From Daucus carota subsp. sativus (lineage: Eukaryota > Streptophyta > Magnoliopsida > Apiales > Apiaceae), in the NCBI RefSeq assembly GCF_001625215.2, contig NC_030383.2:59820949-59884948 (forward strand): a stretch of 64,000 nt of DNA, written 5' to 3'. Position 1 is the first letter of the stretch. Every line of letters starts with the position of its first letter. Below are positions 1,143 to 55,988 of the stretch, one piece after another. The notes under the pieces were generated by a model, which was not told the DNA's origin, made no database searches, and saw only the letters and a list, made by a program, of their open reading frames with translations. The translations under genes and the position numbers were made by a program.

Positions 1143-1925
1143 TAGGGGTGATCGCGGTGCGGGCGGTGCGGTTTTTGGCTAAAACCGCAAACCAAACCGC
1201 GTATGCGGTTTTGCCAATTTCTCAAACCGCAACCGCACCACGAAAAGTTAAAACCACATAAACCGCACCACGAAAATGCGGTGCGGTTGCGGTGCGGTTT
1301 ATGCGGTTTATATATTATTATATGTTAAAATTAAATTATAAAATTTGTCAATAATTAAATTTTTTTCTGAGAAAATATAATATGATAAAAATGGAAATAC
1401 GAATACTAAAAGCCAAGGCCTGAAGAAATGAATTGAAAGCAAGCAAACCTGTCAAGATGTTTTATATAAAGTTCAGCATAAAATGCCTTAATTATTCATA
1501 TTAAATGCTTTCAAATAAAGTACATATAATTTAATATATTAAGAAATGATTTTAACAGATAGGTAAAAACTAAAAATAAACAAAATAAACAGTAGGCAGA
1601 ACATATACACATCCTTACATTCCAGACCACCTGAGGCCCAAATTGATATCTAATAAAGTAGCATACTAATGCATATATCCTCTAATATATATATATATAT
1701 TTATATATATAGTTAATATATTTTATTATATAATATATCAAATGCGGTGCGGTGCGGTTTTAACCGCATTTTGTAAAATAAAAACCGCAACCCGCACCGC
1801 ACCTTGCGGTTTGACAAATTTTCAAACCGCAACCGCACCACAAAAATTAAAAACCACGTATCGCGGTGCGGTTTGGTGCGGTGCGGGCGGTTTTTGCGGT
1901 TTATGCGGTTTGATGATCACCCCTA
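1143..1925. mobile_element. Non-autonomous hAT element with GCGGTTT subterminal arrays
   Basis: The ends are TAGGGGTGATC and GATCACCCCTA, an 11-bp perfect terminal inverted repeat. A perfect 8-bp duplication GTTAGCAT flanks them at 1135-1142 and 1926-1933, the size diagnostic of hAT elements. About 180 bp at each end is packed with GCGGTTT, GCGGTGC and their complements, and the 783-bp element is AT-rich in between. It has no transposase, so it needs one supplied in trans. In hAT elements such subterminal repeats are typically transposase binding sites; that role is inferred here. The intact TIR and duplication suggest a fairly recent insertion. Confidence 0.9.
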
Positions 1926-1933
1926 GTTAGCAT

Positions 1934-4900
1934 AAACAAAATCTCTGTGTTCTGCAAAATTTAAGTACTGCATCAACATTAACAAGGTCTTTTTAATTTA
2001 TTTACTGTTTATACAACAAAGAGTTACAAATTTACACTTAAATGCAGATTATTATTGTTGAAATTGCAAAACATTATTTACTTTAAAGAAATATTTATTT
2101 ATTAAATTTGGACATATATAGCAGATTAAGGTGATTCATGGTATGTACAGAGCATGTGGAAGTGATAGCATAATCTACCAAAAATTAGGAATCCACATAC
2201 ATATATAGTTCTCTGTATCTGACAAAATTTTCCGACAGAACAAACCAGGTTCATGGTATATATTACAGAGCATATGCAAGTGTTAAGTTGGTGCATAATC
2301 TGTCATGAATTTGCCATCTTGTATATATGTTCTAGCTATCGAGAATTTCATGATTTGTTTGTTAATGCCAGTTTATTATCATCAAGATAGCATGTCTTTG
2401 ATGTTGGTTTCATAGTTTACAATACATTATCATGCCTAACAATAATAATGTACATTATAAGCAGGGTCGGACTTCGGAGATGCTCTAATACCATTTGTGT
2501 TCTAATATTTCTTGTTCAGGTCACTTTACTTTGACATCCTAGGTCTGGTGACCCGTTTCTAAGCTTATCTAGTGATGGTTGTTTCTTACAAGATAGTGAA
2601 AAAACTGAAAAGTATTTTGCCTCATGCTCTTGCTGTTTCTTATCATTTGTTTAATCGTATTTTTCCAGAACCCTGAATTTAAATTTAAGTGAATAATTTT
2701 CAACTCTTTATAACAGATCGAAGAGGGTCAAGAATTCGAGTTTCAGTGAGACCATAATCCATAAAAACTAACACTATCTCATGCTATGCAGTTTTATTGC
2801 TGCAACTTGTTATTTGCACAACATTTGTAAGATGGTTGATTATACAGACACACTGCCACAGCAAAAACAGGGCGTTTTCATGTTTGAATTGTGGCATGTT
2901 AATCTAGCTTGCAGTATAATCAAAGTTTACAGGTCTCATCTGGTGTAGAACAAACTTATGCTAATTCCTAACTACTCTCTATTCCTCATTATAATATTAA
3001 TTACATTAATGAATCATACACATAATTACCAAAGCAATGCGATCGTGCATGTTTCAATACAAAAGTCTTGTCCCAAAAAAAATTATATCATTCAAAAATA
3101 TCAAGTTGAACACTTATTATCAAATGTTAGTCCTATAAAAAGAAATTCCAAATGTCATCCCGACTCGATGACTCTAAACTCACCTTTAGATAACTACCCG
3201 AGTACTGTATAATATATATTATATAATGAATTTTTTTAATTATTTTTACAAATACAAGAGAAGAATTCTTTCGTTATTTGGATATTGAAAAGCATAATTT
3301 CGAGATTAGATAACTTACCTAAAATCGATTTTAGAAACCCTTTTCTCGTGTCAATAAATCAACCCTCTCGTCGGCAAATAAAATGCGCAGTTCCTCGCAG
3401 GTAAAATGTGCAGAAAATAATGTACGCCGACAAGAACCCGTACTTAATATATTTGTATTCATATATACGGCCAGAATTACTCCATGATTTATGCAGTGAT
3501 GCACAGAGTTCCAGGAGGTCCCCAGTACAGCAAGTCGTACCAGAGAGGACTGAATCTCTCTGATCAAGAGAGGCAGTCAAGCCAAGTTCTACTCCGGAAA
3601 CAGATGAATTTATTACCGAACAAATTAAAACAAACACCTCAATGTTATAAACTAAAACTAGTTGATCATGCTTAAACCTCAATCCAACTTCATGCATGGG
3701 GATCTTCCAAATAAGTACCACTTCTAAGGATTCTCCTAGAACTCAACGTTATTTGTGTATCTATCTGACATGATTTTACTAAAATATTTCTTGATAAATG
3801 TAAAGTTAATATTGAGCAAGCACTATTGATAGGATGAAAAAAGTAATTTATGTAAAATAATGAGAATTTAGGGAATCCATGTGCCAAGTGATTTAATATG
3901 GAGTGAATGAATATTATATGTAGTTAGATAATTTATTTAGAGGTTTGCCAGGTTGTTTTGCATTTATATTGCTGTAGCGTGGCCATGTCGCCATGTTTGA
4001 GTTCTTTGTATTTTTGTTATAATATACTAATAATAATATTCCCAATAATTGATTAGTTTTTAATGGAAACTTTTGGCCTCCCAACACACAAGTTTGTCTT
4101 CAACCATTTATATACAATCCTCATTATTTGTTAGATATGTAATTTATATATGCACTTTTCAAATAGTTTAATATATCCTTTAAAAGAGTTATTTTAGTGA
4201 GAAATAAAATGTAAATTCTAATTTATAAATATGTGAATGTGGTAAAAAATTTCAAATAATTAGCAATCATAAAAATTGAAAAAACTACTTTCATTAACTA
4301 CTATTTATATATAGTATTCATATAAAAAAAATTATACATACATTATTTAAATTTTAAGTGCCTATATTCCCTCTGTGTGCTAGCCAACCAGATGCCTCAT
4401 TGGTTAAATGTACATTGACTTCACTCTTATCAACATTCTTGTGATGATAGATTGAAAGTGCACCCACCTATATACATATCCCATGTTATATATTTACATA
4501 ACAACTATCAACTATAATCAAGGTCAATGAAATTGTTATTATTGAATGAAATGGTTTATCAATTTATATACTTATTGAATTCTACAAAAATGGTAAGTAA
4601 GATTGAATTATTACCTAAACAAAACAAAAAATAACAAGAATGAATATTCAATGGTAACAACCATGTCAATCATTGAGTAAAAGAAGGTGCAGTGGCAGAT
4701 TAAGTATTCGTTGGAGCATGTTGAAATGGAATCCAGAGGTACAATCAATCACTCTCCGGAGATGGAGAAGACGTGTTTTAAATAATAGAGCTTACACATT
4801 TGATTAATAATTAGGCACAGAAGCAATCAATATATCATTTCAAAACATTTAGATTTCTAGTTACATGTATAACTTTATGTCATCAAAGTACATTTCAATG

Positions 4901-5624
4901 TATGCTAAACTCAAAATAGCTAGATATATCATACACAAATATGCTCTGCACATGATTTGTTAAACTTAATTATATAATCACCGTTTAATCACTGCTTAGG
5001 TTTCATTACAATGGTTATTGAGTGCTAGAGCACTAAAGTTGAATCAGAACATTTTAATTAAGATGAACTCAGATCTGTTATTAAATTCGAATTATGATAA
5101 TTAAATATCATGTAGTTATGGATTACTGTGGAAAAATATATGTGATGCAGGACATTTGTACCCACAACATAGATATATCATTGGAGTTTGGCCTAAAGCC
5201 AAAGCTAGTTAGATCTTGAATAAGATTTGCTTACACATTCTAATCCTTTGATAGAGGAAATGATATGTGTATGAAAAGATAACTAGGTTTCCCAAGTTCC
5301 ATTAGAAAGTGGAAAATACATACAACTTGAGGATGATTATAAGGTACAAACTTTTTCCACTAGAAACATCCTCACACTCTCTATGGGAAACTTAATGGAA
5401 ACTTATCACATAATCTAATCAAACATTACATTCCGAAATCTGCTAAGCAAAAATTACATGCAGCAGCAAGCCGGAAGATTTCAAGAGGAAAGAGTATATA
5501 TAAAGGTAAAATATATCCACAAAGCCAAAATCACCCTCAAAGTACACTCCCCACATAAAAAAGAGAAAAAAAAAGAAGAAAAAAAAACACTCAAGAATAG
5601 TCTTCCGACATCGGAAAAATGGAC
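1934..5624. other. Intergenic DNA without a recognisable gene
   Basis: This is AT-rich sequence with only short open frames. The longest, on either strand around 3330-3890, overlap each other and have no recognisable domain, so I do not call them. A tract at 2468-2500 resembles a decayed tRNA-primer-binding motif, but no terminal repeats could be found. Confidence 0.5.
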
Positions 5625-6083
5625 TTAATCTTCATGAATGCTTTCTAGTTGAGGTAACCATTGGCCACTCTTACTACAGCTCCTCCGATCGCGTCGTGAG
5701 GCCTTCTTTTCCGACGTAACAATTTTCTGACAGGGATCCGGCAGCACAACAACATCAATGCTGTTAATGCTTTTAGGTTTTTTGGAAGATGTTTTCGGAT
5801 TTTTATGATTTCTCTTTTTTTCGGGCAAAGAAGAAGAAGGTATCAAAAAATAAATACTCCCTCTCTTGAGCTCAGTCTCTGGTGACAAGATCAAGATTCT
5901 CCTAACTACGCCTTGAGAGCAAGGTTTGCTCAAGACATGATTAGGGTTGTTGCTTAGAATCTCCCCGGCGGTGACCGGACGTGTGATCTCTTCAACATGG
6001 CCATTTAAATGAACTATTCGGATCAAATCCAAAGCTCCACAAGGAAGAACACAAGCCAAACAACATCTCAAACTGTTTCCCAT
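5625..6083 (-). CDS. PADRE (DUF4228) domain protein
   Basis: This intronless gene encodes 152 residues starting at MGNSLRCC. I chose this ATG rather than the in-frame one 39 bp upstream because MGNS followed by Cys pairs is the usual family start and a plausible N-myristoylation and palmitoylation signal. The DUF4228/PADRE domain runs from about residue 18 to 85: LIRIVHLNGHVEE, then a TAGEIL segment, then VRRILILSPETELKRGSIYFLIP. A basic Ser/Lys linker follows, and the conserved C-terminal box is WLPQLESIHED. Family members are small plant proteins often induced by pathogens and stress; their biochemical activity is unknown. A TATA box lies about 130 bp upstream of the ATG. Family assignment is firm, the exact paralogue is not. 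Confidence 0.88.
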   Translation of the reverse strand: MGNSLRCCLACVLPCGALDLIRIVHLNGHVEEITRPVTAGEILSNNPNHVLSKPCSQGVVRRILILSPETELKRGSIYFLIPSSSLPEKKRNHKNPKTSSKKPKSINSIDVVVLPDPCQKIVTSEKKASRRDRRSCSKSGQWLPQLESIHED

Positions 6084-6212
6084 CTTTCTAATGTAGATGA
6101 TTAACTCAAGAGTTATATACAAGCTTGATCTTAAATATATATAACTTTGTGTTTTTTCTTACAATCTTTGTGGTTGATTTGAATTGTGTTATGGATGGGA
6201 TTGAATGTACTC

Positions 6213-6221
6213 ATATATATA
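6213..6221 (-). promoter_or_regulatory. TATA box of the PADRE gene
   Basis: On the minus strand the sequence CTATATATATGA lies about 130 bp upstream of the chosen ATG. Its position fits a core promoter with a 5' UTR of roughly 100 bases. Confidence 0.5.
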
Positions 6222-6984
6222 GAGGGGCTTCATAACTGTCCTTGCAAACTACATGGTGGTAATAATATATATTATAATACTTTGAACGGAAATGTCATTT
6301 TTGCCCCTCGGCATTTCTCTAATTAATCAGTAGCTGTATAGAGAATTAAAGTACTATTCCGTTTTGAATTTGAAATACAGATCAATATCACTTGCTATCA
6401 TGTTTAAAATTTATTTCATATTTTAAAATCACTTAAAGTTTAAATTATAGAACAACAATCAATTTCAAGTACAAATAAGTATATTTTAGAGGTTTAACAG
6501 TGAAGCATAATCATTGAACTGAAGAGAAGCTCTCTGTTTTCTGCTTTCTGGCCTTCTGGGTAAGCTTCCTTTATTGTCAATACTTGCAAGTATAATTAAC
6601 TTAAGCCGTCACATTGTGATATTAAAAAAAAGTTTCTTAATCCATAATTATGCGCAATAATACAATATTAAGGAACATTTAAATTCATAGAATAATAATC
6701 TCTAATGATTATTACATGTTCCTGGTTCTAAAACTGTTAGGAGTGCCTAATCATCATGCATGTTCACAATATTAGATATTTTTTTGATTGATTTTATGAA
6801 TTTCAACCGCTGCATTAAAACAAAACATTTCTGGGGCAACCTAGCTAAGTAGCTAACTATAAATGCTAAAGTTTTGTTGGGGCATTAAAATTGGACCCGT
6901 GAACAAGATTTAATATTATTAGATTAGATCTAGATGGGCAATGTTAATAAAATTAATTTATTGTATTTTAGTAGATAAAATATC

Positions 6985-7360
6985 ATATATAAGTCCTGTC
7001 GTAACATAACTACCGACAGACGTTCTGTCGCAAATTCAACTTTGTTCAAAAAGAAAACCAGAACCCACAACAGACCTGTGACGGAAACTTCCATCGTAAG
7101 TTAGTTAATATACGACGTCGTAAGATAAAATTTATCCGGACAAGGATTTGAGGTCCACAACATATTTGCGATGGAAAGTTTCGTCAGTAAATTCTGAAAC
7201 TTACGATGGTATTAATACTTGCGACGTATGTTGGGAATTGTGACGTATTTTGTAACTTTTGACTTGACCAAAAATGACGGGAAAAATCCGTCGTAAAGTA
7301 GGAACTTACGATGGACTTGCGCCTTAACTTACTTCGTAAAAACCCTATTTTGTTGTAGTG
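6985..7360. mobile_element. CACTA-type element fragment (one end)
   Basis: The right end reads CCCTATTTTGTTGTAGTG, the complement of a CACTACAACAAAATAGGG terminus typical of plant CACTA elements. Inside it lie many scattered GTCGTAAG, GACGGAA and CGATGG motifs in both orientations, resembling CACTA subterminal repeats. I could not find the matching CACTACAAC end on the left, so this is a truncated or decayed copy; the left limit is approximate. Confidence 0.6.
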
Positions 7361-8186
7361 ACCCAAGTAGATGGTCTTTTGCCGAATTTAATCTTTACCA
7401 ATTTCAACAGATTAAGCTCAATCGAATTAAATAAATGTTTTTCATGGTGATGTCCTTTTAATATATAAAGGTACATACCCGTATATTATTATATGACAAT
7501 TTATCTTTCATCTTTAGATATATAATTAATCTACAAAATCTATAATTATTCTTTTACGAAAATTGAGGGTCATACCAGAATAATTAATTATAATTATATA
7601 TTGTCTTATTATAGTGACAAAATTTTATTCACATATATCAATGCTATATTACAATCCATTGAAAGTGAGGATTCGAAGATGCAACAGTATATATTATATG
7701 AGTGAGTTTAATTGTTAAAATAGTATTTCGTTAGAATATCTCCAGAGTTGTTAGCTAAAATACATTAATACATATTAAAAATAAAAAATCTATAAAAATC
7801 TATAAAAAAAAAACTTAATTATAACATTTTTCTTATCTATAAATATAATCAACTTCTGTTTTTTTATATATTTATTAAACTTTTACATGTTGTAAAAATC
7901 TGTAAAAGCCAAAATTACATCATTTGTTAGCATATTAAAATAATATATATCAATATTCTATTCAACACAACCTATTGTCAATAATATATTATTTTTATCT
8001 AATATTTCTACATTTCTAATCTATCCAACCCCTCGGAAATGCTCTCCCAACCTCTATTGATTATTTGGTTGAGAACATGACCCTGAAAAGGCGAGGATAG
8101 ATGTGGTCAATTTAGCACTTATTAGGTTGCTCCAGTCCAACGAAACCAGCTGGACTTGATCTAAGCTGATTTTTTTATTATATATA
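7361..8186. other. AT-rich intergenic DNA
   Basis: I see no gene. Segment 7735-8045 starts with ATATCTCCAGAG and ends with CTCGGAAATGCTC, which may be the worn ends of a Tourist-like MITE, but there is no convincing target duplication. Confidence 0.35.
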
Positions 8187-8489
8187 CTCCCTCCGTCCCC
8201 CTCAATTGTTTACATTGGAGGGGGACACGGAGACCAAGACAATGTATGAAAAATGATTAAGTTAGATGAAAAGTGGGTAAAGTGGTGGGACCCATCAATA
8301 TTTAATAATAGATTTGAGATAGTGGAGGAAAGTAGTGGGTGTAATAGTAGTTTTTATTGTTAAATATGAGATAGTGGGGGAAGATAGTGGGTGTAATGAT
8401 GGAAAAAACTTACTATATATGGTAATGTAAAGAAATGAGAGGGACATCCCAAAATAGTAACTGTAAAGAAATGAGAGGGACAGAGGGAG
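8187..8489. mobile_element. Stowaway MITE
   Basis: The element starts CTCCCTCCGTCCC and ends GGGACAGAGGGAG, flanked by TA on both sides (8185-8186 and 8490-8491), the hallmark of Tc1/mariner-type Stowaway MITEs. It is 303 bp and non-coding. Its right end carries a partial tandem copy of the segment GTAAAGAAATGAGAGGGAC. A truncated relative lies at 50552-50728 inside a hAT element. Confidence 0.85.
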
Positions 8490-8491
8490 TA

Positions 8492-9603
8492 CATAAGTCA
8501 CATATACTCCTTAAATCGCTCGCCAAACAAACAACTTCGAAACATTATAATATTAATTTACCTCATACATATATGTTTGATATATTATATAAATATGCAG
8601 CTGGCAGAGTATATACAAAGACTTGGTGGAGTTACATTCATCTGCTTCTCACTCAACTCAATTAATTGTTTTAAGTAGTTCTTTTTCTTGGCACCCTGAA
8701 TCCCGGGTCTGCGATTGAGTGTTAATAATATAATAGACAATGTTTTTGTATAACGGTATAAGTCGAGTATGAAACACGAATATTGGATGTGAATGACAAA
8801 AAACTTGGGGTACAACTCGAGTCCGCGTGCGTCCTATTTATGTATTTATTTTATTTTATTTTTTTCCATATTTACGGATATAATTGGATGTATTGCTAAA
8901 TAGCTAACTTATTTCCTAGTCAAAACAGTTACTTAAAACAGTTAATTTAATCCACGAACAACTAGTCACCGTCTAATTTCAAAGGAGGACTAATCTGAAA
9001 AATCTTCTTCATATAAAAGTGAGTTTTCTTCCTAACTAATAGTTCAAGGAAAGTAAGTTAGACATTATATAAAGGGTAAAACTATATAAAAGTGGCTGTA
9101 AAATCTGTTACGAAAATAACATGATATCAGTCATGACGTGGCAGTTTAGAATGATTTAATTAAGAGAGATTAATTCATATAAGAGGTCCATTATTATTGT
9201 TTAAATTATAATCAATAAACACATGACATTCACGTATCATTTTGTATATATTTTTTATACCTAAATTGGGTATTTCTAGCATTTTTCTTGTATAAATAGT
9301 TATTAGAACATCTTCAACGATGCTGGTTAAAATGATTGATTATATGAAACTCGTAAGTTATAATGTAATATGACTATATTTTAAAAATAGTATGTTATTA
9401 TTATTTGAAACTGTTATAAATGAAATGATAATGTGTATTTGAAGTGAACAAATTTTTATTATATAATATATAATTTCTATTGATAAGAGATTTATTGAAT
9501 TTTAGCTAAAATATTGAGGGAATAGAAAATTTTAGCAATAATAATTGGGAAATGTAGACTTTATTATGGACTTACAATTCGTTAAACTATAACAACATTG
9601 TGA
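8492..9603. other. Intergenic DNA, nothing recognised
   Basis: AT-rich sequence between a Stowaway MITE and a large Mutator-like element. No coding region, RNA gene or terminal repeat could be supported. Confidence 0.5.
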
Positions 9604-9617
9604 TTTAAATAAGAGTA

Positions 9618-9745
9618 GAGTTTATTGCATTTTGCACCCCCCTGGATTTCCGAAAAAGCACTTTATGGCGTATATTTTGTATAATTGCAGCGTTCACCCC
9701 TCTCGTTTGAAAAGCGCAGCAATTGGAACCCTTCCGTCATTGAAC
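9618..9745 (+). repeat. Left terminal inverted repeat of the MULE
   Basis: It pairs with the right repeat over about 120 bp at roughly 90 percent identity by eye. One homopolymer C difference lies near base 20 and a few substitutions are scattered along it. Similarity fades after the CAATTGGAACCC block. Confidence 0.88.
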
Positions 9746-9936
9746 CGTTAAGTTTACTCAAGACCGTTAACTGAGGGGCATTTGACCCATTTTCAACACA
9801 GTAAAAGTACCGTTACCCCTCAGTTGTATATATACACATATAGTAAATAATTTTTATTTGTCTCTCTCCCATCTTATCTCTTCTGTTCTTATCTTTTCTT
9901 CTCTTCTTCTCTTCTTTATTTACTTTTTCATCGATA

Positions 9937-10362
9937 ATGACTGAAAGATGTCTGTGTGGTAATTGGTTGGCAACAAAAACTGCTTGGACTGATCTAAATG
10001 CAGGCCGGCGGTTTGTTTCTTGTGAAAGATGTCGATTTTTCCGGTGGTTGGATGAGCCGCTTTGTGAGCGTGCAAGAGCAATAATACCTGGGTTGTTGAG
10101 AAAAATTAATAAACTCGAAGCACAAACAAAACAAGTTGAGTGCAAGAGAATTGGATTTGGTTCGCAACAGATCGGAGGTCATTTGGCATGTTCCGAGGTA
10201 GGGAGAAGGGGTTTCGTGGGTGAAAGGGACATGGAGTACCTAAAAGGATCTAAAGATGAGAAGTGCGGTTGCAATGTTGCACTTACTTTGTTGATTGTCA
10301 CCTGGATTGCAATAATTTTGTATAGTTTCTGCAAGATCCAAGATGTTGAAGTAGATGACTAG
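9937..10362 (+). CDS. GRF-type zinc-finger protein with C-terminal membrane segment, carried by the MULE
   Basis: A single-exon 141-residue open frame. The N-terminus is a GRF-type zinc finger: Cys5-x-Cys7-Gly, then GRRFVSCERCRFFRWLDE with Cys29 and Cys32. A charged, probably coiled helix follows at about 45-70 (LLRKINKLEAQTKQVE). A hydrophobic segment at about 114-132 (VALTLLIVTWIAIILYSF) looks like a C-terminal membrane anchor. GRF fingers bind nucleic acid in other proteins; small GRF plus coiled-coil plus TM proteins are widespread in plants and their role is unknown. The frame is intact and sits about 190 bp inside the left TIR, so it is probably cargo of the MULE. It could be a captured host gene or an element-encoded accessory protein. 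Confidence 0.75.
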   Translation: MTERCLCGNWLATKTAWTDLNAGRRFVSCERCRFFRWLDEPLCERARAIIPGLLRKINKLEAQTKQVECKRIGFGSQQIGGHLACSEVGRRGFVGERDMEYLKGSKDEKCGCNVALTLLIVTWIAIILYSFCKIQDVEVDD

Positions 10363-10811: not shown

Positions 10812-11110
10812 TCAATACCATGGGACCATGGGACCCTTGTTCTTCCTTGATGCTCCCTGCAACTGCTTAAGAGTTGTGTATTTCTGACCATCTCTTTCGA
10901 AGTACTCAACTCCTGAGGGGCCTGTTTTTGCTGGTGGTTTGAAAGGTTTGACAATACCTCCATGAACGAGCAGTTGTTTGCCATCTTTGATTGGGCTGGA
11001 TCTGGGAGATCTTCCGGCAAGTATCTTGAACCTAGGTGATTTCTTTGTCTCTGAATCTTGGCTGGCAAACATCTCATTTTGTGTTTTTTGTAGGTCATCT
11101 AGCTTTTGCT
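10812..11110 (-). pseudogene. C-terminal coding remnant inside the MULE, cut by a hAT insertion
   Basis: An open frame of about 100 codons ends at 10812 with GPMVPWY. It is basic and proline-rich (KSPRFKILAGRSPRSSP, then VEYFERDGQKYTTL) and starts with a short helical stretch QKLDDLQKTQNEMF. Just upstream the coding strand is interrupted by a hAT element whose 8-bp duplication CTTTTGCT lies at 11103-11110. On the far side, at 12003-12060, a Glu/Lys-rich segment could continue the same exon, but a stop codon lies near the join. I do not recognise a domain. It is plausibly the last exon of the PB1-like gene. Confidence 0.45.
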
Positions 11111-11994
11111 TAGGGCTGAGCAAACGGTCGGTTCGGTCGAAAACCGAACCGAACCGAAATAACCGAAAACCGAACTTTCATATTTTTTGAAACCGAATCG
11201 AACCGTACTTGTTTTTCAAACCGAACCGAACCGAACCGAAATTACTTCGGTTTTTTCGGTTTGGTTCGGTTAAAACCGAACTTTATATATAAAAAAACTC
11301 AGACTCAGAAAATCAAACAAACAGGCTGTAACTCAAAGATAAACCAACAACTCGGACGCTACTCAGAACGACTCGGTGACCGAGAACGGCGACTCAACTC
11401 AAATCAAATGGATGCGGAAACACAGAAGTCAACCTACTGAATACCAACAAAAGCAACTCGCAAATCGGAGTTATTAACATCACAACAAAAACTCAAATCG
11501 GATTTCAGCAACTCAAGGAATGAATTTATCAACAAGACTCAACAGCAACACAAACTATCTACTTGCAAAACAAAGCAGGCTGACTCAGTAAACAAGGCAG
11601 ACTCGCAACTCGATATAATACTATGCTGAATCGTTCTTCAATCGAATGTGAAGCTGGTAGCTGGAGATGAGAATGGAGGCTAGAGGCGTGATAAATGCTA
11701 ATTAGGGTTAGAGTTCAGTGGACTCACAAGTCACGGGCTGTAATAGTATTAGATATTTTTAAGTATTATTATATATATAAATATAAATAATTTAAAATCA
11801 TATATATATAAAACTTCGGTTATTTCGGTTAAACCGAAATTTTGGTTTCAGAAACCGGACCGAACCGAACTTTTTGTTCGGTTAAAACCGAAAACCGAAC
11901 TAACCGAAATTTTCAGAAACTTCAAACCAAACCGGACCGAATTTATGCGGTTCGGTTCGGTTATTTCGGTTCGGTTCGGTTTTGCTCAGCCCTA
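11111..11994. mobile_element. Non-autonomous hAT element with CGGTTCGGTT arrays, nested in the MULE
   Basis: The ends are TAGGGCTGAGCAAA and TTTGCTCAGCCCTA, a 14-bp perfect inverted repeat. A perfect 8-bp duplication CTTTTGCT lies at 11103-11110 and 11995-12002. Both subterminal regions, about 150 bp each, are dense arrays of CGGTTCGGTT and its complement plus AACCGAA units. The 884-bp element has no transposase. It inserted after the host MULE, because it splits a MULE-internal coding segment. Confidence 0.92.
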
Positions 11995-12002
11995 CTTTTG
12001 CT

Positions 12003-45293: not shown

Positions 45294-45298
45294 TTTTT
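45294..45298 (+). terminator. Pol III terminator of tRNA-Arg
   Basis: Five T residues follow the tRNA 3' end immediately, the standard RNA polymerase III stop. Confidence 0.75.
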
Positions 45299-47900
45299 AC
45301 AAGCTTAATAATTTTTTATTTTTGTTTTTTATACGTTGACACTTGCAAATCAAGAATCTATAATTCCATGATGAAAGCTTGAATGTGCATAAGAGAGCGA
45401 GAGTTGTTTTAGCTCGAGGCAGCTTCCATGGTGCAAATGATGTTCTTTTCAATTACATTTTCAAATGTCGGTACTATTAAGTTTACTTTTCTACGCACTT
45501 TATATATTACGTTGATCTATTAATATTTAGGTGCAGAAAAATCAGTTGATAATAATTTAGTAAATTTTAGAAAAAAAATGTTGTGGTGTTTAACGTACAA
45601 TTTTGGAAATTTAAGTACAATATTTCAAAATTTCGTGAATTGTGATGAGACTTCAAAAGATTTAAAATTTACCAAACTCATCATTTTGTTTTACTTCAAA
45701 AAGATCTTATCAACAATTGAATACCATCAAATTTTAATAGATTTTAAATAATGTCAATAAAATATAATAGGATTTTTAAGTATAATTTCAAATTTTGATT
45801 GAATTTCAGCAAATAATTAAAAATAATTAAAAAATTAGTCGACATATAAATTTTAAAATTTAAGTCGCATACACATATATTTCATGAATAAAATAAAATA
45901 TATAAAAATCTTAATAAAATACAGCTCGTGCTAGCTTGAATCAAAATACTAGGTGTCGGCATATTATGTTGTCTTGTTTTAGTGGACTGGTTTTTTTATT
46001 AATTAAATAAATATTCAACTAGAATTTTGATCATTCGTTGAACATTTGATAGACTAATTCGCCAAGTTGGTTTTCAACGTAAAAATCTAGGCAATCCCCG
46101 AAATCCAGTGATACGTATACACTGTATGCGTGGTGCAGACCAATGGTATATTAGTTTACATATATACCATTTTGGTCGTTAATTAAATAATTCGTCACAA
46201 ATCTATTTCTTTCTTTTTATGAAATTTTATGATAATTTATATATATTTTGCAGTTGATATAAAATTGAATTGATAAACCGCCCGCTCGAGTAAATCGACA
46301 ATAGGCTTCCGAATTCAAAGGAAAAGTCTTTTAGTTTGAAATGAAGCCCTCGATCGAATTAAACTATAATGCTTCTTGGTACACATGATTTGACACCAGT
46401 TAGTTTATTACATGTAAGAAGATTATCAAACTCTCCGTGCAGCCGCAAGAATCTTTTCCTATATATGTTCAGTTACGTACCTTACATTGAATTTGGACAT
46501 GCACGATTTCGAGTTGCAGGGGAAGTTGAATGTCATAAGATTTGAGTTTGATATTCACTAAATAGTTCGGATTTGGGGATGTTTCAATCTTGATTCGATA
46601 AAAGTTCGATAAATTTAAAATGTGCTTAGAAGTTTTATTTACGAGAGATCCTCTCATCACTTGCGAATAGTCGAAAATGGATTCTCTCATCACTTGCTAC
46701 CGGTTATTAGTTGAATTATATGATCGTCCTCTTACATGACACCGGACGTGTATTTTATATATTAGATTTCAAGTAAGAATTTTAGTCTTGTCAATTATTT
46801 TTTGTGACACTGAAAGACACAACAACATGCGAATAGACGGGTCACGTTGTCTATCCGCAATTTAGACACTAATTCGGATTTGTGTCTTTCAGCTATCAAA
46901 AACGCGGACAATGATTCAGCTGGAAAACAAGGTGTTCCTCCACCTGATCGATTGCTTCATTGAACTTTCATGGTGATTAGCCATGCATTGCTATAATTGT
47001 AGTGTTGCTGCATACACAAAATTGGGTATAAAATTTTGTACAAAATGACATGAAATTGAAATGATGTTTTAATCGGTTCTATTTATGTGAATATACCGAA
47101 TCATTCTAATTAAAACTTAACACATGTTATTTGTGATAGACTTTATACCCGATTTTGTGCATGAAGCATTTTCCTTACTACAAATCCCAGTTCTTATATT
47201 AACTTGTTAAGCCAGGTGTGCATTCTTGAATCACCTACCTTTCTCACTCTCTTTAAATGTAGTAGTAATTCCCACACCAACATATTAATATGAATCCTTT
47301 CTTGTTCTGGAAACTACCAACACATTTAAGATTGTCTGTCTGGAACATCATCGTTTTCATAACTGACGACTTTCAGAGTTGATTTTAGGACTATGTGGCT
47401 AGCTAGGTTCAAGTTTTCTATCTGGACATAGAGTTGGTATCAGTTTTTTATAACATGAAATCACAACTTAATTATTCATAGTACTGGTAGGCTGGTAGCT
47501 AGCATATTAGAACATGCAATTTGCTTAGAATATAGTACTATCTGCAGGTAATCAAGAAATCACAAATAACGTTAACTGCACTCACACTCCAAATCTCACA
47601 TGATACAGTTGACTTCATAACATTTTATAACTTAATTCCCTTCTTAACATGGCCGTGGAAATAAGTCACTTATTTCTGGAAAAAAATATCATATTTGTAT
47701 ACACCGTCCCTTTCTCTACGTGAAAAACACAGTTAATTTCTGCAGGCTAATTAAATTAGGAAAAATATATAACACAACAAACTCGGGTAAGAAAAATATT
47801 AAAAAGAGGAAACAAGTAATTGATTGTTAAATTAAGATAGAGATGAAGAAACTTGGAAAAAGTTGAGCATTTCATCGAGATTTGAAGCTATTCTAGCTAG
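45299..47900. other. Intergenic region downstream of the LBD gene
   Basis: No gene was found. It contains a small hairpin at 46810-46895 (CTGAAAGACACAA with its complement, plus an inner TGCGAATAGAC pair) and a MITE-like palindrome listed separately. Confidence 0.45.
46998..47185. mobile_element. Unclassified short MITE-like palindrome
   Basis: The left arm TTGTAGTGTTGCTGCATACAC then AAAATTGGGTATAAA is matched on the right by the complement of TGCTTCATGCACAAAATCGG and TTGTAGT. Arms are about 45 bp. Target duplication was not resolved, so the superfamily is open. Confidence 0.5.
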
Positions 47901-48412
47901 TTATGTCCAGAGAGACTCTCTCTTGGGAGGATCCTGCATTACAATATTATTGCTAGTAGTAGAACTGAAGTTAAGGTACTGTTGTTGAAGAAGGTTATAG
48001 TCGAAGTTACTAGTGGATAAAAGAAGCGATTTCTCGTCTTGGTTCATCATCTGTTGTGTAGTGATTGGAATGTTATTAGGTTGCTGATGATGATGATCTT
48101 GTTGTTGCTGCTGCTGCTGCTGCTGCATCTGAAAGCATAGAATCTCTGCTTGAGCAACTGCAAGCTGCATTTGTAGCTGAGAAACTTGGTTTTGCAGGTA
48201 GGATATTGCGCCGACGCATCCGTAGACGGGGTCTCGAGATCTTGCGTTGGCTTCGAAGACCAGGCTGCTCACTGCGTCTCCCCTCTGCTGCACTGGAATT
48301 TCCTGTAACAAAATAACCATAAAGCTGTTTAATAACGAGAGAGAGAGAGGGAGGGAGAGAGAGAGAGATGCAGAGAGAGAGAGAGATAGAGGGAGGGAGA
48401 GAGAGAGGGAGG

Positions 48413-48451
<39 letters not shown>

Positions 48452-48825
48452 AGGGAGGGAGAGAGAGAGGCAGAGAGATTCAAGTGAGAGAGTGAGAGAG
48501 ATTCAGAGAGAGAGAGGGAGGGAGGGAGGGAGAGAGAGAGAGAGGAGAGGCAGAGAGATTCAAGAGAGAGAGTGAGAGAGATTCATAGAGAGAGGGAGAG
48601 AGATTCAGAGAGAGAGGAGAGCAGAGAGATTCAAGAGAGAGGGAGAGAGAGATTCAGAAAGAGGGGAACCTGCAACATCTTGCTGACATTACTAGCACCA
48701 AAGATTTTGTGAACAATGGCAAACTTATGAGGGTCATCAGGAGGAAAGTAAGGCGCAAAGATACAATCCTTTGCGCAGCGGCGTCTCAGCAACTTACACG
48801 AGGCACACGGAGTGGCTCCTACCAT
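47901..48825 (-). CDS. LOB-domain (LBD) class I transcription factor
   Basis: Exon 1 is 48825-48670 (52 codons) and exon 2 is 48302-47901, giving 185 residues. The zinc-binding C block is CX2CX6CX3C (Cys7, 10, 17, 21). The GAS block runs from about residue 35 to 80 (FAIVHKIFGASNVSKMLQ, then QRGDAVSSLVFEANAR and DPVYGCVG). The leucine-zipper-like heptad region YLQNQVSQLQMQLAVAQAEI spans about 87-106. The C-terminus is Gln/Asn-rich with a run of nine Gln, which may serve activation. LBD proteins bind DNA and act in lateral organ boundaries and vascular or root development. The sequence is closest in style to LBD12-type proteins; the orthologue is not fixed. I start at MVGATPCASC; an upstream in-frame ATG at 48873 would add 16 residues. 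The intron is almost pure CT repeat. Confidence 0.92.
48337..48659. repeat. Compound (GA)n tract filling the LBD intron
   Basis: About 320 bp of GAGA, GGGA and GATTCA-containing purine units occupy nearly the whole 367-bp intron, leaving about 35 bp at the acceptor side and 10 bp at the donor side. A unit near CAGAGAGATTCAAGAGAGAG recurs at least three times. On the coding strand it is a giant polypyrimidine stretch. Confidence 0.9.
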
Positions 48826-48944
48826 ATCTCCCAAACCAACACAACCAAGCAAAACACCAATATATGAAACCACCCACCTCTTTAGTAGAACAAAACTACT
48901 ATCTCTCTTCTACTCACAAGAGAATAACAAGATTGCCTATGCCC

Positions 48945-48952
48945 TATTTATA
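48945..48952 (-). promoter_or_regulatory. TATA box of the LBD gene
   Basis: The minus strand reads TATAAATA about 120 bp upstream of the chosen LBD ATG. The upstream alternative ATG at 48873 is about 70 bp from it, so both starts are compatible with this promoter. Confidence 0.6.
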
Positions 48953-50086
48953 ACCCTCCATTAAAGTATAAATTCAGATCCAACAAAGCCCATTAAACAA
49001 ATACTTTCCACAACCAACAAGTTTATGTAGAATGAGAAAAGGATATACAACTTGAACCTCTCCCAACAAAACTGTTACACACTCAAAATTACCCTTCTAG
49101 ACATCTCCAACAAGGGACCATGCAGCAGCCGGCAAGGGCAAAATGGTCAAATGGGTCTGGAAATAATCAAATGAACATGCACGTATAGAGTAGCAATGTA
49201 GCATTGCGAAGAATCAAGGGTATGAGTTGACCACCGCTTTGGCGCGTGATAGGTTGGCTAAAATATTATAAGTCCCCACGTTCATGTTTGACTCTTCTGT
49301 GGCTACGTAGCTCTGTATTTGGAATCTGTGTGCTAATTAATGGAAGACTAATAGGCTTAGTTGTTAACTACTGTATGAATGTAACAGAAACAATTATTTT
49401 TTATATTTTTTTTCTTGTTTAAATTTAAAAGGGATATAGACCTGAATCTCACTCTGTTTGCCAGAAGAGTTAAAATCACCTTTGACTTTCATTTCTGTTT
49501 CATATACAGTGGTAGAATACAACAGGAATATTGAAAGAATTACTTGGCGAAACAAATAATTTTATTGAAAGAACTTTTATAATGATCATAATTAATTTAG
49601 ATTATTTTGTGGTTTTCCTCTTATTAACTAGATATATGTATCTTGTAAATGGTAATTCATACATCTGTTCTAACAAATCTGAGAATTGAGCGAGAACCGA
49701 GACCAGATTTTGGAGGAAATTTGAAACAAAAGAGATAAACCCCCCATTGGCTAGCTTGTTTTCTATAGAATTTGTAATTTTTTCGGTTCTCTATTTATGA
49801 ATGGTTCTGCTACTGGCATTTTAGTATTGGTGATGGGAGGATAGTGTTGGCTTGTGTTGTTTACTCAGTAACAAAGTAGATGGTGGTGGGCAAGGTCACC
49901 AAAATCGAATCAGATCGAATTGAAAAATTGAATTAAACTGTGTAATTTCTGTAAATTGGGTCTATAAGTCGAATATACTGAAGTATAATTCTATTCATCC
50001 TGAAATAAAAATGAAATTTTAAAATTTTGTTTTTTATTTGTTCGGTTCAGTTCGATTTTGGACCGAACTGATCAAATGCTTACAGG
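48953..50086. other. LBD upstream region, no gene
   Basis: Upstream regulatory and intergenic DNA. No coding region or element termini could be supported. Confidence 0.45.
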
Positions 50087-51060
50087 TAGGGGTGTACACG
50101 GTGAAACCGACCAACCCGATCCAAACCGATCATATTTCGACCGATCCAACCCGAAATTTTTTAACCCGATTAGTAATTGGATTGAAAAAGTATTAACCCG
50201 ATTTAGTTGGGTTGGACATGGGTTTCGGATTTTATTAACCGATCCAACCCAACCCGATTGAAAAATATGTGAACATATTAGTTTTACCCATCTCATCACA
50301 TATTAGTCTAGTGCATTTAGTTTTATTGTATTTGTGTAGTAATTTCTATTTACTATTTTAATATATATGAGATAATATTTATGAATGAGAATATGAGATT
50401 AAATTCATTATTATGTTTGTGTATTATGTTTGTTTAGGATCACACAAAGATGAATATTGATTGTTTGTTATGTAAATGTATTTATGGTCTTAAATTCATC
50501 TATTCAAGTAGCAAACAAACATGATTGTGAATATGAGATTAAATTCATGAATATGAGATAGTGGAGGAAAGCAGTGGGTGTAATATTAGTTTTTATTGTT
50601 AAATAAGAGATAGTAGGGGAAGATCGTGGGTGTAATGATGGAAAAAACTTACTATTTATAGTAACGTAAAGAAATGAGAGGGACATCCCAAAACAGTAAC
50701 TGTAAAGAAATGAGAGGGACAGAGGGAGTACTACTTATTTTTTGAACTAAATTTAAATTTATGTCTTTGACAAGATTGTTAATGTATTTTTTAGTGTAAA
50801 AAACTGGATGTTGAAGACCTAGACACCGACGATTATAATATTTTGTTGAACTGTTTTTCATTTTTAAAATCTTGAGACATCTGTTCTAGTTATATAATTT
50901 AGTAACCCAACCAAACCGATCCAATCCGATCCGAACCGAAGTACAACAAATTGATTTGGGTTACAAATTTATGCGGTTCGGGTTGGGTTGAAATTTTGAA
51001 AACCCGATTTAATTGGGTTGGGTTGATAAATTCGCCCAACCCGAACCGTGTACACCCCTG
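50087..51060. mobile_element. Non-autonomous hAT element with AACCCGA/CCGATCC arrays
   Basis: The ends TAGGGGTGTACACGG and CCGTGTACACCCCTG form an inverted repeat differing only at the outermost base. A perfect 8-bp duplication CTTACAGG lies at 50079-50086 and 51061-51068. Subterminal zones (50095-50265 and 50900-51050) are arrays of AACCCGAT, CCGATCCAA and GGGTTGG units. The 974-bp element has no transposase. It contains a truncated Stowaway copy at 50552-50728. Confidence 0.9.
50552..50728. mobile_element. Truncated Stowaway copy inside the hAT element
   Basis: From ATGAGATAGTGGAGGAAAGC to GAGGGACAGAGGGAG this matches the right part of the Stowaway at 8187-8489 closely (roughly 93 percent by eye). 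The left about 130 bp are missing. TA follows the right end. Confidence 0.8.
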
Positions 51061-51068
51061 CTTACAGG

Positions 51069-51777
51069 CCAGTCTTGTGCTACATAAGTTTGATCGTAAA
51101 CGGAAAAAAAAAAGTTTATAATATTTGTAGCCCTTGAATAAATCTTGCACCATCATACAACGCTCCCTCGTTACTTAATAACGTATAATTTGGTGATTTA
51201 AAATGAAGTGCTTGAGTATTTTAATCTATTTAAATCCATATAACGCCAGAGAGGGTTTGAAAAATAATTATAAAAGCATCATCTTGGGAGGAAGGAAAGA
51301 AAGACATAGAAGAAGAGCACGACCAGCTAGCTAGAGTTGAGGATTAACTACTAGTAGAAAACAATAGAAGCATGGAATGATGCAAAACCCTAACCCAGAG
51401 GAAGAGGAAGATGGACTCGACGTGAATGTTTGTTTGCGGACATAATTACTACACCACCATTTTCTTCTCTGCAATCTAATGCTAGACAAGGCACAGAAAA
51501 GTGGAAAACTCCAATTTTGACTCCTTGGAGTAATAAATTTAAGGACTCTAAAGACAAGCTTAATTAATGCCATGTTTCTCAAGATTATACACACTCACCA
51601 CTGCAAACTACTCCATTAAAACGGCACTGAACACCTTACCTTTGTTTTAGCACACCCTATTTCTGTAACATTTCTTTACTGGAGAAATTATGTATCAAGT
51701 GGGCACAACATAGAGTTTTGTAATAGATCAAATACATTATGCATATACATGTCATGTGATATATATGTTATATGGGT
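51069..51777. other. Intergenic DNA with one doubtful short ORF
   Basis: A minus-strand frame at 51331-51570 could encode about 80 residues with a basic middle (RLQRRKWWCSNYVRK) and Ser-rich segment. No family was recognised and no splice context supports it, so I leave it uncalled. Confidence 0.35.
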
Positions 51778-51966
51778 CTTTCTAGTGTGTGCCTAAAGGC
51801 ACACATTAAGCACTAAATTTGATGAGTTTAGTGGATTTTGATTGGTGGAGTTGGTGTAAATGCAAGGGGGCCATCCATATTTATGATTACATGACCAATA
51901 AGAATGCACCAAACTCATAAAAATTAGTACTTAGTGTGTGCCCTTGGGCGCACCATAGAAAAACCG
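51778..51966. mobile_element. MITE-like palindrome with GTGTGTGCC ends
   Basis: The left arm CTAGTGTGTGCCTAAAGGCA then CACATTAAGCACTAA pairs with the right arm TTAGTACTTAGTGTGTGCCC then TTGGGCGCACCATAG. Pairing continues inward (GATGAGTTT/AAACTCAT, GATTGGTGGAG region with ACCAATAAG). Arms are about 80 bp. The target duplication is unclear. Confidence 0.55.
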
Positions 51967-52343
51967 ATGTTATATAGGATCGTATTCGGATCGAAGAAAA
52001 TCACTAATTCACTAAAGATGAATGTGTTGGAGGATTGAAATGGTTTTCTCACTCGACACTTTTAAATACAAGCCATCAACTTCATCAAAAAAAATTCTCT
52101 TGTCCTAATTTACTTCAAATCCTATTTACAGTAATTACCATCTTCTTTTCCGGTTCACTCCTATTTTGAATAAAAAATTCCACCACAATATTTCTATCAA
52201 ATAAGATTATCTCAATTATCATGAATAAATATCTTCTCATATTAGAATTCTTCACTTATTTAAGGATTAAAGACGGAACCCATCACGATGCACGGCAAAA
52301 CATCGACTATATTTGAAATTTGAACCATTGACCTCTTATAAAA

Positions 52344-52630
52344 CTCTACAAGAAAACAGGTCAAAACCGACCACTTAAAATCGATCGTCACGAATAAAAC
52401 CGACCGACGTGGTGACAGGTGGCATCAAGTGAAACCATTTTTCTGGGAATGCAACAGCACATAACCAACCGCCCATACGATCGGTTTTAAGTGTTAAACA
52501 CGATCAATTGACGTAACCGACCAGGGTTTAACCGACCACCTGTATCGGTCGGTTTTGGCTTTATAACCAACCGATTACATTCATAACGGACCAATTCTGT
52601 CGGTTGATTTTGATTTGTTTTCCTGTAGTG
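52344..52630. mobile_element. Small CACTA-type MITE
   Basis: The left end CTCTACAAGAAAACAGGTC (first bases altered from CACTAC) and right end GATTTGTTTTCCTGTAGTG are inverted. AAA on both sides fits the 3-bp duplication of CACTA elements. The 287-bp interior is filled with ACCGACC, AACCGACC and GGTCGGTT units in both orientations, typical CACTA subterminal repeats. No coding capacity. Confidence 0.8.
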
Positions 52631-54024
52631 AAAGGATAGAGTTCAACGTTGCTATAACAGATAAGCAGTTGTATAACATTATTGAATTCTGATCATAACA
52701 TCATTTCTGTACGGCTGCCACACTATAGAGAGATCCACCTGGAACACTACATGATCAAGAAAATCAACTAACATTATTTCTTGTTAAATATTTATTATCA
52801 ATTTTCCAGAGTAATTGCTGTGTTCTTTCGTATCCGTAAACGTTATATATATATAATCTCTCAATTTTTTTAATATACCACTAACCACATTATACTTGAA
52901 TAATACTCCTAAGTCCTACGTACCATATTAATGTTATTGTTAGTGATTGTGGTGTGTGCATAACTAATTAATAAAATGAATTATATTATTTTATTACTAT
53001 CGACCACCAAGAAATTAATGCAAATCAGTCAATGAGATCCAGCATGAAGCTAAGGTCAAGAGAATTAAAAACGTAATTATATTATTTCTTCTGACGACCA
53101 ACAACTAAATTATGAATTTTATAATTAAAGAGATAATTTAGCTCGCTAGCATGAGAGTTGAGGCCACATGCAACATGCTTAAGAAGATAAGTTGGCTTGC
53201 TTCAACCTTGAGGGCACATGCAATGAGATTTAAGGGTCGTAATTTATTTTAGTGAGGTCAGAGGTTGCGTATAAAGATATAGATTACTATTTCAGAGAAT
53301 TCCTTTGGTTATAGAGTGTTTTCTAGATTTACGATTTATGTTATGGCACCGTTCATTTTCAAATTGGATATAAAAGTACACGGACAGATGTTTAAACCAT
53401 GCAATTACAGTAACTTATAATTATTCGAGTAATTCATGCAAATCGCAAAACGTTGCGTAATTCACATGATGAATTTTGATCGGGAAATACTATAAGCAAA
53501 ATTTTTATATCTAGAGCAAACAAGCATTAAAAGACAAAACTGCCCCCATGCATACACAATAATAGCACAAAAAAAAAACAATGTGTCTTTTCATTTGGAT
53601 ATAAAAATTTGCTCTGGATATAACATTTTCCATTTTGATTTCCTAAAAAGTGCAAGTATTTACGAGATACTTCTATGCTATAAATTAGGAATGATATTGA
53701 CAGAAAAAAGCGCTGAACGTGAAAAATCCTAAGATGAGGCAGCATTTCGTTGAATGATATACTCTAGCATTTTATGTATCAAAATATTAGAATTAAATTG
53801 TTTAATATCTTTTTTTATCAATCAACTTATATACTGACATACGTATGTGAGCGAGTCGGATCATAAATTAATCAGTAGTATTTTCTTTAATCTTATCAAC
53901 CAAACAAGTTTACAACTACTATTTGTTGTTCGTTACTTATCATGAAATTATAATTAGGAGTGAGTTTCCTATCGACTTATCTAACAACCAGGCAATTACT
54001 AGTAAGACAGAAGATACATAAACG
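52631..54024. other. Intergenic DNA, no gene recognised
   Basis: AT-rich, with only short incidental frames. I see no RNA gene or element ends here. Confidence 0.45.
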
Positions 54025-54938
54025 CAAGGACGAAGCCAGCAAACATCTATAAGGGGGGCCAAAAAAATTTCTTCGACACAGTAAAATTTTTCGTCAACAC
54101 AGTAAAATATTCGATATAAAATAAATATAAAAATACTAGTAAAAAAATTTAGTAGAACCTTGCGCTCTTTTAAACCAGGAAATCAAATATATAGTTGTGT
54201 CAATTAAAATATTTAGCTATTTCTTTTTAGATATATAAGAGTATAAAATATTAGGAAACTCATCATAATAACTCTAAATTATACGATAATTTTTAATTAG
54301 CAAGTAACACACATTAAATGAAATTGTACTTAAAAAAAATGATATTGTATTTTAAACAAGAGTAAGTAAATTTTTTACAATATCTCAAAAACTAAATATT
54401 ATGCTTATTAACTTTACAAAAAAAAATATTATACTTATTTAGAAGATGACAAACTATAGTTTAAACAAGTAAAAATATTATCTGAATAATGAAATTTGAA
54501 TTGACAATGAGTAGATAAATATTAATATTAATTAAAAAACTGATAATACACGAGGACTAACTCTATTCTACGAAAATGAAGAAGTGAGGTAGTTTCTTGG
54601 ATAAGAAAAACCTCCACCAAAAAATTTTATTTTTGTAAAAGAATTGTATTGACATTTACCTTTATCACATATCACGTTACACAATCTTTTTCTTAAATAG
54701 CATAATTGTATATATATCCATATTTTTGCTTATTTTTATTTATAAATTTGGTCTAATACATAAATTAGAGAAATAATGTTAATTATCTCTTAAGAGTGAA
54801 CAAATATTTTTTAGGGGGGCCAAATTTTTATATTTATATAAATATACTGATAAAATACAATTCTTTTTAAAATTATATAATACAAATTATAATATTAGAG
54901 AAACCCTAGGGGGGCTGGCCCCTGTAGCTTCGTCCATG
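54025..54938. mobile_element. Non-autonomous hAT element with CAAGGACGAAGCC ends
   Basis: The termini CAAGGACGAAGCCAGC and GTAGCTTCGTCCATG are inverted with one mismatch near the tip. A perfect 8-bp duplication CATAAACG lies at 54017-54024 and 54939-54946. Blocks of AGGGGGGCC stand near both ends (54053 and 54816, 54908). The 914-bp interior is AT-rich and non-coding. It belongs to a different hAT family from the TAGGG group. Confidence 0.85.
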
Positions 54939-55130
54939 CATAAACGAGATGAAGCATTTTATATTACATGTGTATTGTGCAAAGCATAAATGAAAAAGAT
55001 TCCGCACGAGGCCATGCAACACTTGCATTCAATTCAATTTCTGTTTCTGCAAGATCATGCTCAAGTGTCATGAGCTTTCTGAATAATGTCACCTTAACTA
55101 AACTAATATTCATATATAGAAACCTAAAAA

Positions 55131-55196
55131 TCTCTCTCTCTCTCTCTCTCCCCCCTCCCTCTCTCCCTCTCTCTCTCCCCCCTCCCTCTCTCTCTC
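55131..55196. repeat. CT-rich microsatellite
   Basis: CT dinucleotides are mixed with CCCCCCTCCCTC units and repeated twice. It is low-complexity DNA; overlapping frames are not genes. Confidence 0.85.
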
Positions 55197-55321
55197 ATTA
55201 ATGATTTCCAGATGATTCCAAACTTATAATCTCTATTCCGAGAAAAACAGCACCCTTCCCCTAGTTGTCATTGCAGTTGCTCCATGACTTCTATATTACA
55301 TTTATCTTAACGAAGTGATAG

Positions 55322-55988
55322 TAGGGATGGGCACGGGGGCACTTCGGGGGCGGGGAGTGCCATCCCCGACCCCGATCCCCGAATTCAATATCCCTACCCG
55401 ATCCCGCCCCGAACCCCGAACGGGGATTAATTTCCTCCCCGATCCCCGCCCCGAACGGGGAACGGGGATCCCCGCGGGGTTTCGGTGAATTTTATTTTTT
55501 AATAAAAAATAATAATTTTATAATATATAATATACTTTTTAATTAAAAAACAAACTACAAACTCCCAATATAATAATAAAATAATATTATCTTATATTTT
55601 CAACCTCAAATCATATTAAAATTGATTTATAATATAAATAAACAACAATTTAAAATTATAAAATATATTATATTACAATATTTTTATAATCAATCAATAA
55701 AAATAAAGATTATTTTTTACTTTTAATTATATTATAAAGTTTATCTATTTTTAATAATATATTTAGTATAATATATATAAATATATTATTATTTATATAT
55801 ATATATATAATCGGGGTCGGGGATCGGGGCGGGGAGACACCAATCCCCGACCCCGCCCCGATCCCCGAATTTTTTATAAACCTTTCCCCGATCCCCGCCC
55901 CGCCCCCGAAAAATTCCCCGAATCCCCGACCCGAACGGGGCGGGGATCGGGTCGGGATCGAGCGGGGCGGGGTAAATGCTCATCCCTA
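55322..55988. mobile_element. Non-autonomous hAT element with CCCCGATCC arrays
   Basis: The ends TAGGGATGGGCACGGGG and GTAAATGCTCATCCCTA share an inverted repeat TAGGGATG(A/G)GCA. A perfect 8-bp duplication AGTGATAG lies at 55314-55321 and 55989-55996. About 150 bp at each end is extremely GC-rich, made of CCCCGATCC, CCCCGAAC and GGGGCGGGG units. The 667-bp element is almost pure AT in the middle and has no transposase. Confidence 0.92.

Follow-up and report, generated by a model that had tools for sequence, protein, structure and literature searches.

Carrot hAT MITEs with CCG-core subterminal arrays: putative transposase binding words proposed to diverge with the BED finger

A 64,000-nucleotide stretch of the carrot genome (Daucus carota subsp. 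sativus, contig NC_030383.2, positions 59,820,949 to 59,884,948; hereafter the window) carries four miniature inverted-repeat transposable elements (MITEs) of the hAT superfamily, denoted E1 to E4, each of which fills both of its ends with copies of a short word. The locus raises the open question of how a transposase and dozens of binding sites change together, and the carrot genome offers a natural series in which to follow it: a single hAT lineage with many words and with MITEs to match, whose BED fingers vary at a few positions. From sequence comparison we consider it probable that the arrays are transposase binding sites, and that their words have diverged together with the BED zinc finger of the transposase within one plant hAT lineage. 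Such a series could yield a DNA-recognition code for BED fingers and a rule predicting which transposase mobilises which MITE. It could also test whether the asymmetry of the ends, and not the identity of the word, is the conserved part of transpososome assembly.

Four elements and their CCG-core words

A scan of the 64-kb window for 8-bp duplications with matching ends recovered all four elements, each flanked by a target-site duplication (TSD) identical at 8/8 positions. E1 (783 bp, 1143..1925, forward strand) has tips TAGGGGTGATC that match at 11/11 positions and lies between copies of GTTAGCAT (1135-1142 and 1926-1933). E2 (884 bp, 11111..11994, forward strand) has tips TAGGGCTGAGC, also matching at 11/11 positions, and the TSD CTTTTGCT (11103-11110 and 11995-12002). 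The tips of E3 (974 bp, 50087..51060, reverse strand; TSD CTTACAGG at 50079-50086 and 51061-51068) are TAGGGGTGTAC/CAGGGGTGTAC and match at 10/11 positions (TAGGGG/CAGGGG), the mismatch being T/C at the outermost base. Those of E4 (667 bp, 55322..55988, forward strand; TSD AGTGATAG at 55314-55321 and 55989-55996) are TAGGGATGGGC/TAGGGATGAGC, likewise 10/11 (..GGGC/..GAGC). The tip pattern [CT]AGGG.TG occurs at 11 sites in the window, both strands counted, and eight of these are the ends of E1 to E4. Terminal inverted repeats of the YARNG type are the rule in the hAT superfamily. With their 8-bp TSDs and short terminal inverted repeats matching at 10-11 of 11 positions, E1 to E4 are hAT MITEs; on this point, and on the arrays at their ends, the window scan and the density counts bore out a preliminary description made from the letters alone. 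The same scan returned many AT-rich chance pairs and one further hAT-like element (54025-54938; tips CAAGGACGAAG/CATGGACGAAG, TSD CATAAACG). This fifth element, which we take to be Tip100-like, has no CCG cluster and serves as an array-free comparison.

At both ends of E1 to E4 the CCG/CGG sites start 13-19 bp and stop 143-179 bp from the tips. Their density is 50-100/kb in the terminal 200 bp versus 7.8/kb in the window outside the elements, and none of the three commonest words of a family is found in the core of its own element. We name the ends A and B after the orientation order described below. In E1 the A-end array (1155..1306, forward strand) holds 15 sites and the B-end array (1745..1908, reverse strand) 17, both with the word AACCGCA(CC). 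The corresponding arrays of E2 hold 18 sites (11125..11278, forward strand) and 20 sites (11817..11979, reverse strand) of the word AACCGAA(CC). E3 carries 11 CCG sites in its B-end array (50099..50256, forward strand; words AACCGATCC and AACCCGAT) and nine, together with CAACCC words, in its A-end array (50916..51048, reverse strand). In E4, 19 sites of the word CCCCGAA/CCCCGAT form the A-end array (55334..55485, forward strand), and 21 sites with the words CCCCGCC and CCCCGAT(CC) the B-end array (55812..55970, reverse strand).

The word of each family is a CCG/CGG core with flanks of its own. CCG is preceded by A at 88-100% of the sites in E1 and E2, by A or C at most sites in E3, and by C at 95-100% of those in E4. 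It is followed by C at 100% of the E1 sites and by A at 53-91% in E2, E3 and E4 (75-89% for E2), and these flank bases are nearly uniform across both ends of an element. CCGATCC is common to E3 and E4. Because all the words have a CCG core, we have dropped the earlier view that they are mutually unrelated; the four families vary the flanks around a single core. ARAGORN predicts a tRNA-Leu at 11815-11900, within the B-end array of E2; the foldback array has most likely misled the program here.

Orientation layout and genomic copies

The four families had been described as sharing one architecture. Arrays are indeed present at both ends of every element, but the two ends are not equivalent. Read from the tip inward, an A end shows CGG, then CCG, then CGG sites, and a B end shows CCG, then CGG, then CCG. 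Among E1, E2 and E4 the orientation profiles correlate at 0.79-0.90 for the A ends and 0.73-0.85 for the B ends; E3 fits the layout when flipped and lies opposite to the other three. The layout is shared across families: the summed statistic was equalled in 2 of 1000 rotated or flipped null sets, and when E1, E2, E3 or E4 was left out, 11, 3, 0 and 4 of 500 nulls, respectively, were as good. A correlation of AT profiles was partly trivial, since the stretch compared takes in the array edge, and was not used.

Copies of the families were collected by scanning the 441-Mb genome, with the reversed pattern as control. The E1 tip alone, an 11-mer, gave 442 matches versus 183 in the control; the E2 tip plus word gave 227, the E3 tip 205, the E4 B end 238 (overlapping) and the E4 A end 72, each versus 0. 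For E1, 17 of 20 fetched two-tip regions carried a duplication of at least 6/8 (16 at 8/8, one more at 7/8), and all eight E3 tip-pair regions carried one of 7/8 or 8/8. The full end pair of E2 was present in 21 of 30 loci, these being the first 30 of the 227 matches; E2 loci were selected by tip plus word, and E1 and E3 regions by paired tips. Every full copy (17 of E1, 21 of E2 and 8 of E3) has at least seven CCG/CGG sites at each end. Three scans of viral contigs for patterns gave no matches, and the seven matches in a bacterial genome pattern scan were judged to be due to chance and left unused.

The copies repeat the asymmetry of the ends. Typed by G-C skew with the templates of the other families only, 17/17 E1, 20/22 E2 and 8/8 E3 copies, some of them near-duplicates, have one A and one B end (45/47 in total). 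Matching by hand the first 100 of the 205 E3 tip places against 84 exact A ends gave 29 tip pairs, with exactly one A end in 28, none in one and two in none. For E4, a 3-kb limit gave 22 A-B pairs, and not one convergent B-B pair, from 72 A ends and 61 distinct listed B ends. In transposase-bearing relatives (see below), 16 of 20 ends in the CCG group and both ends of L092 follow a gene-side rule: A ends flank the transposase on its 3′ side, B ends on its 5′ side.

Within an element, the A and B arrays of E1 are direct repeats (102/133 identical; 0/300 nulls in the main test), positions 1781-1860 repeating 1181-1260 at 79% over 80 nt. Those of E4 are also direct repeats (101/137 identical; 0/300 nulls in the main test, 1/300 with 25-bp blocks). 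The direct repeat is weak in E3 (39 versus 26; 4/300 nulls), and in E2 direct and inverted alignments tie (61 versus 61), with a 28-nt perfect inverted arm common to the two ends. Direct repetition was accordingly rejected as a general rule for the two arrays of each element.

Some copies show further peculiarities. Two 8-kb elements, L018 (C1:46622030-46630300) and L019 (C2:47156550-47165000), have E1 ends, arrays and perfect duplications; they are alike only at their ends, and neither contains a frame of 150 aa, so that E1-type ends seem to carry foreign DNA here. Six or more E2-type A ends at C4:17621686-17626865, spaced by about 1 kb and all in one orientation, suggest a MITE amplified as a tandem array. 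E4 A ends at C5:8392490, 8401133 and 8409787, again in one orientation and spaced by about 8.65 kb, suggest a tandem segmental duplication. The E2-tipped copies L043, L045 and L062 have alternating orientation strings, which suggest CCGG-type words and possible word variants behind one tip.

Transposase-bearing relatives and their BED fingers

In the protein search 80 of 463 candidates were scored, giving 87 matches of which 30 were taken as loci. Both tips lie in the fetched stretch at 8 of the 30, and seven of these have 8/8 duplications; the duplication of L074, TATATATA, counts as weak evidence. L016/L066, 3,537 bp long, has the tips and arrays of E1 together with a hAT frame of 613 aa, whose core contains the hAT RNase-H and hAT dimerisation domains. 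The ends of E1 align with L066 at 155/170 and 146/165 identical positions (scores 280 and 243, against 105 and 88 for the runner-up), and those of E2 with L069 at 139/166 and 137/164 (scores 199 and 178, against 120 and 104). L069 has the E2 tip and encodes a protein with zf-BED, hAT RNase-H and hAT dimerisation domains, as does L068. L066 and L069 are thus transposase-bearing relatives of E1 and E2 with the same tips and alignable arrays. L079 is tentatively a same-clade, similar-word relative of E3 (word distance 0.30 against 0.60 for the next candidate; B-end score 101 against 70; group support 85/83). Where an autonomous hAT partner had been envisaged for each tip, a transposase-bearing relative can be named for E1 and E2, tentatively for E3, and not for E4 among the typed transposase places.

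Two added transposase 5′ regions proved to be of the L071 type (L104) and to have a BED finger with no array in 1.25 kb (L105). L090 and L095 have open frames but showed neither tips nor arrays over 1.5 kb, and may be host genes.

In a transposase tree of 30 rows, the relatives of E1 and E2 fall inside one 20-row hAT clade (support 96/93), with different words, and not into unrelated hAT clades. Of the idea that the specificity of one hAT lineage had changed, with the arrays following it, the common clade stands, and the claim of mutually unrelated words falls. L066, L080, L067 and L082 (100/100) have AACCGCACC-type words, L068 and L087 (100/100) the word GGATATCCGG, and L071, L086, L074 and L077 (100/100) the word AACCGAA(A). 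CGAGCC words are found in L083, L084, L085, L088 and L091, ATTCGAATA in L081 and CCGTATCC in L092. Word content correlates with transposase distance across 28 elements (378 pairs; Mantel r 0.63, p 0.0002), the mean word distance being 0.08 at transposase distances below 0.1 and 0.90 at 0.6-0.7. In 21 of the 28 elements, CCG ranks third or higher of the 32 trinucleotides. Mixed-word ends, present in L070, L072, L075 and L076, suggest stepwise word turnover. At about position 811 of L075, a CGAGCC-word array lies beside the AACCGAA-type transposase element and probably belongs to a neighbouring element of another word group.

Compared with the PDB, a plant BED profile matched ZBED2, ZBED1 and, weakly, the transposase Hermes of the house fly. 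All base-specific contacts of Hermes come from S66, N67, R70 and Q64 together with two main-chain groups (PMC10368747). Ranked by word class over 25 proteins, the equivalents of Hermes Q64, R70, N67 and S66 come 1st, 3rd, 5th and 17th of 43 BED columns (P 0.003 versus four random columns), the equivalence of Q64 hinging on a gap in the alignment. All six CGA-core proteins, and none of the others that were classed, have arginine at the equivalent of Hermes 70. Arginine at 69 occurs in all four AACCGC proteins and in no other classed one, and also in the array-less L090 and L095. Threonine at 66 is found in all three T-CCG proteins and in two of the six CGA-core proteins. The comparison of BED residues with words that had been proposed is hence divided in outcome: contact positions of the Hermes type stand out, but BED distance does no better than core distance.

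We tentatively suggest, with less than even confidence, that the ends follow a two-level grammar, in which a fixed frame (orientation layout and CCG core) carries a swappable flank address that a small set of BED residues would recognise (Hermes 64, 66, 67, 69 and 70). If this is true, threonine for serine at Hermes 66 would go with T before CCG (L068/L087 and, separately, L092), arginine at 69 with C after CCG (the L066 group), and arginine at 70 with CGA replacing CCG (L081, L083-L085, L088 and L091). Replacing all 20-40 sites together would then create new, mutually blind families from one lineage.

Proposed mechanism and its alternatives

We propose that each of the four is a non-autonomous hAT transposon and that the 9-21 CCG/CGG sites at each end are copies of the word bound by one particular transposase. 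The BED zinc finger at the N terminus of this enzyme would read the CCG core and one or two flanking bases, the flanks acting as the address of the family, and the opposite orientation order of the ends probably helps one A end to pair with one B end, as argued for Hermes. In one plant hAT lineage the BED finger would have drifted and whole arrays changed with it; we infer that selection lies behind this concerted change of words. A MITE of a given word would use the matching relative, that is, an L066-type transposase for E1, an L069-type for E2 and perhaps one of the L079 lineage for E3, the partner of E4 not having been found.

Several points weigh against this mechanism. The Hermes match is weak (8eb5, E 0.086), with the BED region alone aligned; the word classes were set by the analyst after seeing the words, and few independent word shifts lie behind the BED pattern. 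BED distance adds less than core distance to the prediction of words (partial r 0.20 versus 0.33), and the view that it outperforms the remaining transposase as a predictor was rejected. Stops separate the BED piece of L066, upstream and in a different frame, from the rest, and this element has no clean duplication. E2 is equally close in words to L074 (0.07), L077 (0.10) and L069 (0.11), the last being singled out by its tip and end alignment only. E3 has no firmer partner than L079; no transposase relative of E4 was found among the typed places, and of the 150 listed for comparison none has a listed E3 A end or E4 end within 14 kb. E3 fits the layout less well (0.24-0.70) than the other three (0.73-0.90), and the gene-side rule holds overall for only 18 of 26 ends and for none of four in the CGAGC-word group. 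In Hermes, mutating the putative left-end BED sites of a donor left about 70% of the activity, and extra transposases are held unlikely to bind deep in the ends (PMC10368747). Maize Ds1 without AAACGG can move, and Ds-l with AAACGG did not (PMC3260210).

Known systems provide partial parallels. Ac/Ds elements have 8-bp TSDs and the tips C/TAGGGATGAAA; the outer 200 bp or so at either end contain many AAACGG repeats, to which the transposase binds cooperatively (PMC3260210). The carrot elements resemble them in the TSD and the dense short-word ends, and there too non-autonomous partners have their tips, and in many cases their subterminal repeats, in common; Ac/Ds, however, has one word, whereas several CCG-core words with a common A/B layout occur here in one lineage. 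We rejected an assignment of E1 to E4 to Ac/Ds proper, their tips and words differing from C/TAGGGATGAAA and AAACGG; the latter occurs once in the four elements, at 11122. The BED finger of Hermes binds subterminal repeats, some 220 bp per end are required in cells, and the left-end repeats are mostly antisense, the first right-end repeats sense (PMC10368747); its site, AAGT/C, differs and is less dense than the arrays here. CGG-binding proteins derived from hAT domestication combine a BED with a Hermes-type domain; most of their motifs contain CGG with flanks unique to each protein, and motif matches lie in the subterminal regions of four hATs (PMC8097297). That work concerns animals and a fungus, mainly hAT-19, and the present one plant arrays, MITEs and end layout. 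The VANC proteins of Arabidopsis VANDAL elements are related to each other, bind different short motifs arranged in dense arrays in their own elements, and have led to a proposal of motif-protein coevolution (PMC5735166, PMC10398659). In contrast to the carrot case, VANC is an anti-silencing protein and not a transposase, the elements are not hATs, and the motifs lie in one orientation in tandem repeats, in introns and upstream regions. We met neither word turnover nor an A/B layout in plant hAT ends in literature covered by title and the start of the abstract, with subscription papers mostly outside it, and their novelty is limited to that scope.

The best-surviving rival, which we regard as unlikely, is common descent: ends and transposase diverge together in one element, and words copied between the ends need not track specificity. 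Because the two are linked in one element, the correlation of words with transposases could reflect descent, and the Mantel result is equally expected under it. The direct repeats of E1 and E4 and the inverted arm of E2 indicate that copying between ends may happen. Drift and copying alone, however, leave unexplained why the CCG core and the layout persist while uniform flanks change, and the word-informative BED columns coincide with the contact positions of Hermes.

It is improbable that the arrays were selected as foldback DNA or hairpin RNA, the words merely letting the arms pair. hATpin elements, by the title of their description, are MITE-like hATs from diverse plants, named for the stable secondary structures they form; folding here is strong in most but not all ends. 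Eight of 10 folded end strands (eight ends, both strands for E1) have z values of -2.7 or less, down to -7.9, but the E2 A end (z -1.87) and the E3 B end (z -1.17) fold little better than shuffles. Moreover, pairing requires complementary arms, not a shared CCG core or words that follow the transposase.

We give still less credence to the words being host-factor sites, CpG-rich methylation targets or enhancers. The observed/expected ratio of CpG is indeed 1.2-3.0 in the arrays versus 0.63 in the window outside the elements, but like arrays in transposase-bearing elements differ by transposase clade, which a single host factor would not produce. Finally, secondary microsatellite expansion was rejected: although short tandem runs with units of 5-25 bp occur within the arrays, they hold only 2-7 units, and all the full copies fetched (17 of E1, 21 of E2 and 8 of E3), none of them array-less, keep both arrays in the conserved mixed-orientation layout, so that late microsatellite growth is not the explanation.

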